Assembly (NCBI GenBank): GCA_019429185.1
Contig: JAHYJH010000014.1
Location: 1 to 47,693 of the forward strand
Origin: Vicingaceae bacterium
GTDB taxonomy: Bacteria; Bacteroidota; Bacteroidia; Flavobacteriales_E; Vicingaceae
DNA: 47,693 nt
Direction of reading: 5' to 3'
This document shows positions 1,682-4,319 of this stretch, piece by piece. The translations under genes and the position numbers were made by a program. The notes beneath the pieces are model-generated. The model was not told the origin of the DNA and did no database searches. It saw nothing but the letters and a program-made list of their open reading frames with translations. Numbering within the stretch: the stretch's first letter is position 1; the number at the start of each line of letters is the position of its first letter.

Positions 1682-1753
1682 ATCATATCTATAGCTTTTT
1701 ATTTATAAAATCATTTTTTAAAACCTTATAAATCATAAAGACGTAATAATCTG

Positions 1754-1761
1754 TAAATTTG
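1754..1761 (+). promoter_or_regulatory. -10 box TAAATTTG for the 1775 gene
   Basis: An exact match to TAnnTTTG, ending 13 bases before the ATG at 1775. The leader would be very short. No good -33 TTG is seen at the right distance, so this rests on the -10 alone. Confidence 0.5.
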
Positions 1762-1774
1762 CATTATTAGCAAA

Positions 1775-2542
1775 ATGGAAGAACAAGGATATATAGAATT
1801 AAGGGTTACTAATAAGGATAATACCTTAACACCTAAAGATATTGATATAAATGAAGTAAAAGATTTTATATCAGATGTTGAGTCATTCTTATACCCTAAT
1901 CGAAAGGAAAAACAAAGCCGACCACATATTTCTTATGACATTGAAGAAGGTTCTGCAAAGCATAAGTTCTTTTTACCTATAACAGCTGTTATACTTTTTA
2001 ATGGTGTAACAAGCGAAATTAAAAACAGAAATAACCTAGATTTTCTAGATTATAAAAGACAGTCGATAATTGATAAGTTTCAAAAAAAAGCAATAAAAGA
2101 AGGTTATGTAATTGAATTTAATAATTCTATTTCAAAAGAACCATCATTAATTATAGATTACACCACCCATTTTGAAATGATTGCACCAACTTTTTACGAG
2201 AGTGAATTTTATTTGTATGGTGAAATTTATCAAGAAGGAGGTAAAAACCCCAACTTACATATTAGCACAAAAAAATATGGAAACCTCACTATTGCTGCTA
2301 GTAAAGAGCAGATAATGGAAGGTGAGAAAAAAACATATAAGCCTTACGGAATTAAAGTTCGTGGAAAAAAAAGTTTGGAAGATAGTACATTAACTGATTT
2401 AAAATTAGTTGAATTTATTCAATATAAACCTATATTTAATAAATCACTTTTAGAAAAAGTAATAGAGAAGGCATCAGCAAACCTAAGTAAAATTACAAAT
2501 GTTGACACTTGGTTAGATGATATTAAAGCAGAAGGAATATGA
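1775..2542 (+). CDS. Uncharacterised 255-aa protein, partner of the adjacent PIN nuclease
   Basis: Family not recognised with certainty. The protein is soluble, with no signal peptide or membrane segment. Residues 55-100 are partly helical. The second half looks like a small beta domain: a segment near FYLYGEIYQEGGKNPN is followed by ISTKKYGNLTIAASKEQIM and a final KPYGIKVRGKKS stretch. From memory this YGEI..GGK..., then YGIKVRGK pattern recalls proteins of about 250 residues found beside PIN-domain genes in other bacteria. Its stop overlaps the start of the PIN gene (ATGA), so the two are translationally coupled. An antitoxin or RNA-binding partner role is inference; at 255 residues it is far larger than a standard VapB antitoxin. 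Confidence 0.75.
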   Translation: MEEQGYIELRVTNKDNTLTPKDIDINEVKDFISDVESFLYPNRKEKQSRPHISYDIEEGSAKHKFFLPITAVILFNGVTSEIKNRNNLDFLDYKRQSIIDKFQKKAIKEGYVIEFNNSISKEPSLIIDYTTHFEMIAPTFYESEFYLYGEIYQEGGKNPNLHISTKKYGNLTIAASKEQIMEGEKKTYKPYGIKVRGKKSLEDSTLTDLKLVEFIQYKPIFNKSLLEKVIEKASANLSKITNVDTWLDDIKAEGI

Positions 2543-3021
2543 AAGGAATTGAAAGTGTGTTATTAGATAGTTCTTTTTGTATCAGGTTGTTAAAATCAGA
2601 TGCAGATTTTCATACGAATGCGGTCAATTATTACGAGTATTTTCTAGAAAATGGAATTGAAATGTATTTATCAACTATTGTAGTTAGCGAATATGCTGTT
2701 GGCGACAACCCTGACAATTTACTTTCTTTAAATGTTTTTCGTTTATTAGAGTTTGATTATCAAGACGCAAAAATTGCAGGTAACTTTTTTGCCGAGCTTA
2801 AAGACAATAAAGATTTAAGAGATTCTGAACAGCGAAAAGTAATTGTTAATGATATTAAATTATTTGCTCAAATCCATAATAGAAATATTGATGCTTACAT
2901 TACAAAAGACAGAAAATCATTAATTAAAATGATTGATCCTTTAGAAAAGTCTCAAAATTTAAATTTTGAGTTTATAGATTTGGCTATACCACTTAATGAA
3001 AAACTTGGAAAACTTTTTTAA
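2539..3021 (+). CDS. PIN-domain nuclease (VapC-like fold)
   Basis: At 160 residues it is slightly longer than a typical VapC. The four acidic residues of a PIN active site can be placed: D10 in VLLDSSF, E51 in VVSEYAVGD, D105 in VNDIKLFA and D124 in YITKDRKS. PIN enzymes are Mg/Mn-dependent ribonucleases. The gene overlaps the 1775-2542 gene by 4 bases (ATGA) and precedes the VWA gene by 8 bases. Catalytic residues appear intact. Whether it is a toxin or a housekeeping RNase cannot be told from sequence alone; the coupled partner and accessory context favour a toxin-antitoxin-like unit. Confidence 0.8.
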   Translation: MKGIESVLLDSSFCIRLLKSDADFHTNAVNYYEYFLENGIEMYLSTIVVSEYAVGDNPDNLLSLNVFRLLEFDYQDAKIAGNFFAELKDNKDLRDSEQRKVIVNDIKLFAQIHNRNIDAYITKDRKSLIKMIDPLEKSQNLNFEFIDLAIPLNEKLGKLF

Positions 3022-3029
3022 GTGAAGAT

Positions 3030-4319
3030 ATGCGATTTTTTTATCTTTTCACCTTGTTAATTACCTACCAAACTGTTGTTGGATTTGATGTAAATCACTA
3101 CGCTAAAAGCAGTGTTACCAATATCAATACATTTAACAGAAGCACTACTCATAAAGATCAACTTCTTATTGAAATGCCTTTTGCCAAAGAAATTATTTTA
3201 AACAAAGAGCAAAAGCAACAACTTCAAGAAAGAGTTGTAATTAAAATTCAACTGATTTATACGCAATACAGAACGTCAGAAAAATTTAACCAAATTGAAT
3301 TGAACAAAAAACGCTTGTTGGAACTTAAAAAATTAATTCCCGAAGTGTTTGATTTTCCGATGTGGGAGTACGAACTTGTTAGTCAAACCGATGGAAATTC
3401 CAGAGCGGAGTGTAATAAAATGTTTCATGGATTTGTTATTACTTTCAGACCACTTTCTACCGATGATTATATACAACAAGAAAGCGATTACGTTAAACAA
3501 CTTATCCATAATTTTTCAAAAATTGATTCATTAGCAAAAGATACAACGCCAAAACCATTTCACATAAAAACACGTTGGGATAACGGTTATGTTTACGATA
3601 CCATTTGGGGAGAAGAAAAAAAGATAGATTTTTATCCGCCACCGCCACCAAATCCTTATTTAGCTTCACTCAAAGAAGATTCCACTGTGCTAAATTCGTT
3701 TTCAAGAAACAAAAATTGGACAAATTTTATTGTAGTAACCGATGCTACAGGAAGTATGTCGCCTTATTATTCGCAAGTGCTAACTTGGTTGAAAGGGCAA
3801 TTAAACAACGAAAACGCTCATTTATTTGTGTTTTTTAATGATGGAGATAGGAAACCATCTGATAAAAAACTTCCGCTTGAAACAGGTGGTATTTATGTTA
3901 CAACCGAACGAAGTTATGAAATGGTTTCTCAAACAATCAATAAATGTATTAGTGGAGGAGCTGGAGGAGGAGAAACTAAAGAAAATGATGTGGAAGCGAT
4001 GTTGTTAGGATTAAAACATTATCCTGAAGCTAAAAACATTGTGCTTATTGCAGATAATTATGAAAGAATGAGAGATTATGAATTTATGGATAAAATAACT
4101 GTTCCTGTACACGTGTTTCTTTGTGGAACGGACAAATTTGTTAATTTACAATATTTAGATTTGGCTCGATCAACTAAAGGCTCTATTCATCTCACAAATG
4201 AAGATGTTTTTGAGTTAGATAAGTTAAAAGAAGGTGGAATTATCCTTATTAATGAAAGAGAATATGTGTTGACAAACGGAAAATTTAACTTTTATCATGC
4301 TAAAAAAGAAGTGCTATAA
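3030..4319 (+). CDS. Secreted von Willebrand factor A-domain protein
   Basis: A signal peptide (hydrophobic residues 3-18, MRFFYLFTLLITYQTVVG) is followed by an N-terminal region of about 200 residues with no domain that I recognise, a PPPPPNPY linker at 203-210, and a VWA domain from about 232. The metal-adhesion MIDAS motif is visible as D238-A-T-G-S-M (DxTxS form). A glycine-rich loop GGAGGGETKEND near residue 312 resembles the second metal loop. VWA domains bind protein or glycan partners; the ligand here is unknown. The gene starts 8 bases after the PIN gene and may be co-transcribed, though an exported VWA protein has no obvious job with a cytoplasmic nuclease. It converges on argS with only 4 bases between the stops. 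Confidence 0.75.
   Translation: MRFFYLFTLLITYQTVVGFDVNHYAKSSVTNINTFNRSTTHKDQLLIEMPFAKEIILNKEQKQQLQERVVIKIQLIYTQYRTSEKFNQIELNKKRLLELKKLIPEVFDFPMWEYELVSQTDGNSRAECNKMFHGFVITFRPLSTDDYIQQESDYVKQLIHNFSKIDSLAKDTTPKPFHIKTRWDNGYVYDTIWGEEKKIDFYPPPPPNPYLASLKEDSTVLNSFSRNKNWTNFIVVTDATGSMSPYYSQVLTWLKGQLNNENAHLFVFFNDGDRKPSDKKLPLETGGIYVTTERSYEMVSQTINKCISGGAGGGETKENDVEAMLLGLKHYPEAKNIVLIADNYERMRDYEFMDKITVPVHVFLCGTDKFVNLQYLDLARSTKGSIHLTNEDVFELDKLKEGGIILINEREYVLTNGKFNFYHAKKEVL

Follow-up and report, generated by a model that had tools for sequence, protein, structure and literature searches.

The question raised by this locus is what kind of system is formed when a PIN-domain nuclease is encoded together with an unusually large partner protein. 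The window, by which we mean the whole stretch of DNA analysed (47,693 nucleotides from a Vicingaceae bacterium, contig JAHYJH010000014.1), carries on its forward strand the gene of this partner, the proposed antitoxin of 255 residues, at positions 1775 to 2542, and the gene of the nuclease, the proposed toxin of 160 residues, at positions 2539 to 3021. Both open reading frames are present as the initial annotation had described them, and they share the four nucleotides ATGA. That annotation had left two readings side by side, a toxin-antitoxin variant and an RNA-processing pair, and of these we favor the first and find the second unlikely. The pair is probably a mobile type II toxin-antitoxin module with a VapBC-like mode of action but an unrelated, large antitoxin body. 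This reading is built on sequence, conservation, linkage, mobility, predicted folds and a bias toward loss of the PIN gene. Few bacterial toxins are as common as PIN toxins, and their usual antitoxins are small DNA-binding proteins, whereas here a large multi-domain partner with an OB-like barrel appears to act as the antitoxin across several phyla. The pair is also easily cloned for testing.

Linkage, distribution and mobility of the gene pair

A search for the partner in 395 genomes of the class returned 23 copies in 22 genomes, spread over 17 of 196 genera (about 6% of the genomes), and in nearly all of these copies a PIN gene lies directly downstream. From the PIN side, all 29 intact PINs (18 in the class sample, with 9 close and 2 distant ones from the phylum sample) had the partner immediately upstream, and the next matches after the family PINs in the class sample were generic PINs at about 1e-6. 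The genome_contigs scan confirmed 253 related stretches, the best 80 of which come from Bacteroidota (with Ignavibacteria) and Verrucomicrobiota and include single MAG records labelled Acidobacteria and Helicobacteraceae. PIN sequence lies downstream at 78 of these best 80 partner loci; one of the other two is cut by a contig end (L060) and in the other both genes are broken (L064). The proposal of a two-gene unit, which was to be checked by searching other genomes, is thus borne out by neighbors that are conserved with near-absolute adjacency. The two frames overlap at nearly all loci, mostly by 4, 8, 11 or 14 nt, which suggests that the genes are co-transcribed. Partner and PIN distances are correlated (Mantel r=0.94, with 0 of 2000 permutations as high). 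Against the closest relatives both genes have a Ka/Ks of about 0.03-0.1, values that are approximate with synonymous sites close to saturation, and this purifying selection together with the 253 confirmed stretches places the observation far past chance. The window's genome holds a second copy of the pair (L025, G000:C39:7557-8802), which is 39% identical and has an ABC-transporter ATPase gene on one side and an uncharacterised gene on the other. No homologue came out of protein searches against plasmids, phages and IMG/VR.

That the pair is an insert in the window can be read from three genomes of the same genus (L137, L138 and L139). In these the equivalent of position 1690 joins that of position 3028 with 6 other bases between them, and the two flanks are 91-92% and 78% identical to those of the window. 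Relative to these congeners, in which the site is empty, the window has an insert of 1,337 bp (1691 to 3027) with nothing in it but the partner-PIN pair and its promoter. The upstream flank, up to position 1690, is that of ksgA. On the other side, the gene at 3030-4319 codes for a predicted exported protein with a possible von Willebrand-like region and is native to the site, with about 78% DNA identity in the congeners. Partners that are 80-93% identical are found in Mariniflexile, Tamlana, Winogradskyella, Galbibacter, Ekhidna and others, and the closest relatives share with the window only about 1746-3021, that is the promoter and the two genes, while their flanks are unrelated. The window's insert showed no recombinase, terminal repeat or clear target duplication. 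At the locus of a very distant pair (L178, 738-3005), an apparent tyrosine recombinase gene lies 2 nt downstream. A conserved two-gene unit, probably co-transcribed to judge from its overlap, that is both patchy and mobile is what would be expected of a type II toxin-antitoxin system.

These findings bear most directly on the RNA-processing reading, in which the pair would have a housekeeping or regulatory role with the partner as the RNA-binding specificity subunit of the PIN. A PIN domain combined with an OB fold is plausible for RNA processing, and purifying selection on both genes would suit such a role, but a housekeeping nuclease of this type should be broadly present and vertically inherited. 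Instead the pair is restricted to that small share of the class genomes, its site is empty in the three congeners, its insertions lie at unrelated places, and the PIN has repeatedly been broken beside an intact partner. We rejected housekeeping RNA processing on the distribution and the empty site, and consider this reading very improbable. The toxin-antitoxin reading is favored over it by the patchy distribution, the empty congener site, the mobility as two bare genes and the cases in which the PIN has been lost but its partner is intact. We likewise dismissed an RNA antitoxin (type I or III), since noncoding sequence is almost absent from the shared unit.

The nuclease, its partner and their expression

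The PIN protein matches Pfam PF01850 with an E-value of 1.2e-5, above the curated cut-off, and the same model matches all 18 PIN members of alignment A2. The catalytic residues, all encoded on the forward strand, are D10 (2566-2568), which is kept in 48 of 49 homologues, and E51 (2689-2691), D105 (2851-2853) and D124 (2908-2910), which are kept in all 49; R99 is likewise invariant in this alignment. The protein therefore has the four conserved acidic residues that characterize the PIN toxins of VapBC. These are the residues that had been singled out from the start, when it was also proposed that the nuclease should be active, and on the strength of their conservation we agree that it probably is. 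When the window's genome was searched with the Pfam PIN model, there were only two matches (L001, G000:C112:27040-27375, and L002, G000:C232:3470-3811), and the PINs of the partner-PIN pairs were not listed; these two are other, more typical PIN genes, one of them with an in-frame TAA.

The partner is less easily placed. Searches of Pfam, NCBIfam and PADLOC gave it no meaningful match, nor did a PDB sequence search, and its sole match in PHROGs is weak (E=0.006, a 78-position family whose function is unknown). Profile searches against the VapB, AbrB, RHH, Phd and HTH families gave no match, which agrees with the earlier view that the partner is not a VapB antitoxin. The curated libraries searched contain no model of it, although absence there and in papers is no proof that the pair is undescribed. 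The AlphaFold2 model of the partner (m183e89eb1e2d, built with 64 sequences; mean pLDDT 87, pTM 0.64) predicts an N-terminal alpha/beta domain at residues 1-127 (1775-2155), with pLDDT of 86-96 in 10-residue blocks, for which Foldseek gave no assignable match among PDB folds. This is followed by an OB-fold-like beta barrel at about residues 140-215 (2192-2419, a range inferred from strand positions). The PDB fold matches of the barrel are mainly OB proteins (ExoVII, IF-1, RPA14, Rim1 and eIF1A), with a best E-value of 0.01 and TM by target of up to 0.58, so that the predicted barrel is consistent with an OB assignment at the level of the fold while the individual matches are weak. The partner had been expected to be beta-rich, and this was half right, as the model is a mixture of alpha/beta domain, OB-like barrel and helical tail.

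The tail itself (residues 223-255, 2441-2539) is the proposed toxin-plugging segment, marked out by its conservation and by the model. It is helical with low confidence (pLDDT 43-73) when the partner is modeled alone. Residue W246 is a tryptophan in 61 of 64 partners, and position 251 is basic in all 64 (arginine in 58 and lysine in 6, the window among the latter). An arginine near the end of a similar tail is also found in three very distant partners that again lie beside PINs (L024, L178 and L179), and the last of these aligns full-length to the partner family by profile with a probability of 99.2.

Upstream of the pair, the Bacteroidota sigma-A -7 box TAAATTTG (TAnnTTTG) is found at 1754-1761 of the forward strand, and the predicted start of transcription at about 1766 would leave a leader of about 9 nt in the window. 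In 41 of 63 relatives the motif stops 0-12 nt short of the partner start, compared to 0 of 63 for a control stretch, and at 25 of the 63 loci the distance from its end to the start codon is exactly 4 nt. With the box located at -12 to -5 (PMC9723704), this spacing means that the mRNA of these 25 loci is predicted to be leaderless. The commonest start codon of the partner is GTG (49 of 78). The window's -7 box is surrounded by TAATAAT/ATTATTA, but as an operator palindrome this was dropped, since upstream regions of relatives were seen on inspection to be without it. With no DNA-binding domain seen in the partner and no operator seen to be conserved among relatives, autoregulation is unsupported.

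Loss of the nuclease gene and the proposed role of the partner

The pattern in which the two genes are lost bears on which of them may be the toxin. An intact partner stands beside a broken, mutated or missing PIN at four loci found by searches that were not ranked on the partner (L011, L017, L020 and L176). In the genome_contigs loci, which were ranked by partner score and so favor intact partners, nine further PINs are disrupted by a frameshift, truncation, nonsense change or insertion while their partners are intact (L039, L040, L054, L058, L061, L065, L078, L085 and L086), and the PIN of L084 carries D10A beside an intact partner; some of the PIN lesions lie in MAGs and may be assembly errors. 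An intact PIN without an intact partner was not found in the class and phylum searches or in the genome_contigs loci. In genome G290, a 5'-truncated remnant of a family PIN for which no partner was detected (L125, 1492-1797) resembles a decayed locus. The PIN is thus not retained without the partner while the reverse is tolerated, and this direction of loss fits a toxin and its antitoxin.

For the toxin-antitoxin module that we favor, the following mechanism can be proposed. A single promoter would drive both genes; synthesis of the partner would come first, and translation of the PIN would begin at the overlapping start. The tail of the partner, with its conserved aromatics followed by the invariant Arg/Lys, would pack onto the PIN, and by analogy with VapB and VapC its basic residue would enter the acidic site formed by D10, E51, D105 and D124 and displace the metal. 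The alpha/beta and OB-like body would take the place of the ordinary VapB DNA-binding domain, with nucleic-acid binding or the sensing of a trigger as its possible functions. Loss of the partner would leave the PIN free to cleave RNA, probably tRNA or rRNA, and growth would stop. A guard-type antitoxin, in which the OB/alpha-beta body is itself the sensor of phage or damaged nucleic acid and then frees the PIN, is a more speculative form of this idea that we regard as rather unlikely. If it were true, the pair would be a one-step RNase switch for abortive infection that is mobile as two bare genes and can also plug into type I restriction operons.

OB folds often bind single-stranded nucleic acid. 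Together with the OB-fold matches of the partner, this could point to a different arrangement, a phage-defence effector in which the partner senses phage nucleic acid or protein and activates the PIN so that RNA cleavage aborts the infection. The genomic context gives this some further backing. One sub-clade (L039, L044, L047, L048, L054 and relatives) follows the type I restriction genes hsdR and hsdMS, directly after hsdMS, with the partner starting 18-24 nt after it in L047, L048 and L054, and a few immediate neighbors match the MTase_I, AbiL and AriA models. At L047 (431-7240), hsdR and hsdMS are separated by a GxxExxY-like gene. On the other hand, most copies, including that of the window, lie between housekeeping-type genes with no adjoining defence genes, there is no PADLOC match, and loss of the PIN beside a retained partner suits a neutralizer better than a sensor that activates. 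The best viral fold match of the partner, a weak one to a phage DUF6575 protein, at first sight favors defence (Foldseek E 2.4e-8 over 251 alignment columns), as DUF6575 (Pfam PF20215) occurs in an anti-phage system (PMC9519451). However, the TM of this match is just 0.39 by query, the PF20215 profile gave no match to 20 partner members at E<=10, and hhalign of the partner profile against the DUF6575 protein L163 was negative with a probability of 0.5, so the lead is unsupported by sequence. We thus judge the effector reading to be improbable, and the restriction-operon sub-clade and the few neighbors that match defence models point at most to a role in defence for some of the lineages.

Comparison with known systems

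The last possibility to be weighed is that the pair is an ordinary VapBC whose VapB belongs, as a divergent member, to one of the known antitoxin families. The PIN domain, the antitoxin-first gene order with its ATGA overlap and the VapB-like chemistry of the partner tail would all agree with this. Yet the antitoxin of VapBC is small and carries an RHH, AbrB, Phd or HTH domain, while the partner is about three times as long as usual and has none of these by family profile or among its top PDB folds, which are OB. We consider this reading the least credible of those discussed, and because the partner departs from VapB in both size and DNA-binding domain we file the pair apart from VapBC.

Among type II systems it is unusual for the partner to be larger than the toxin. 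PIN/VapC-like toxins have been validated with diverse non-VapB antitoxins by NetFlax, and in the part of that work available to us none of its antitoxins (PanA, DUF2680, DUF2080, RHH_6 and others) is described as an OB-containing partner family, a separation that is based on these descriptions (PMC10440598). The partner family also differs from any catalogued antitoxin that we found. Compared with VapBC and FitAB, the partner is different in its 255 residues, its alpha/beta domain with an OB-like barrel and its lack of a recognisable DNA-binding domain. What is shared with these systems is a PIN toxin with an acidic quartet, a partner gene that comes first and overlapping genes, as well as what appears from the sequence to be a comparable tail with aromatics and a basic residue. 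In the VapBC of S. flexneri, the tail aromatics Trp47 and Trp50 of VapB rest against VapC, and the place of a metal in the acidic site of VapC is taken by Arg64 (PMC3384007). The initial claim that the VapBC model does not describe the pair therefore holds for the antitoxin body but was too strong for the tail, which resembles the neutralising tail of VapB. It seems from this that tail neutralisation of the VapB type can be combined with unrelated bodies, which may themselves be sensors.
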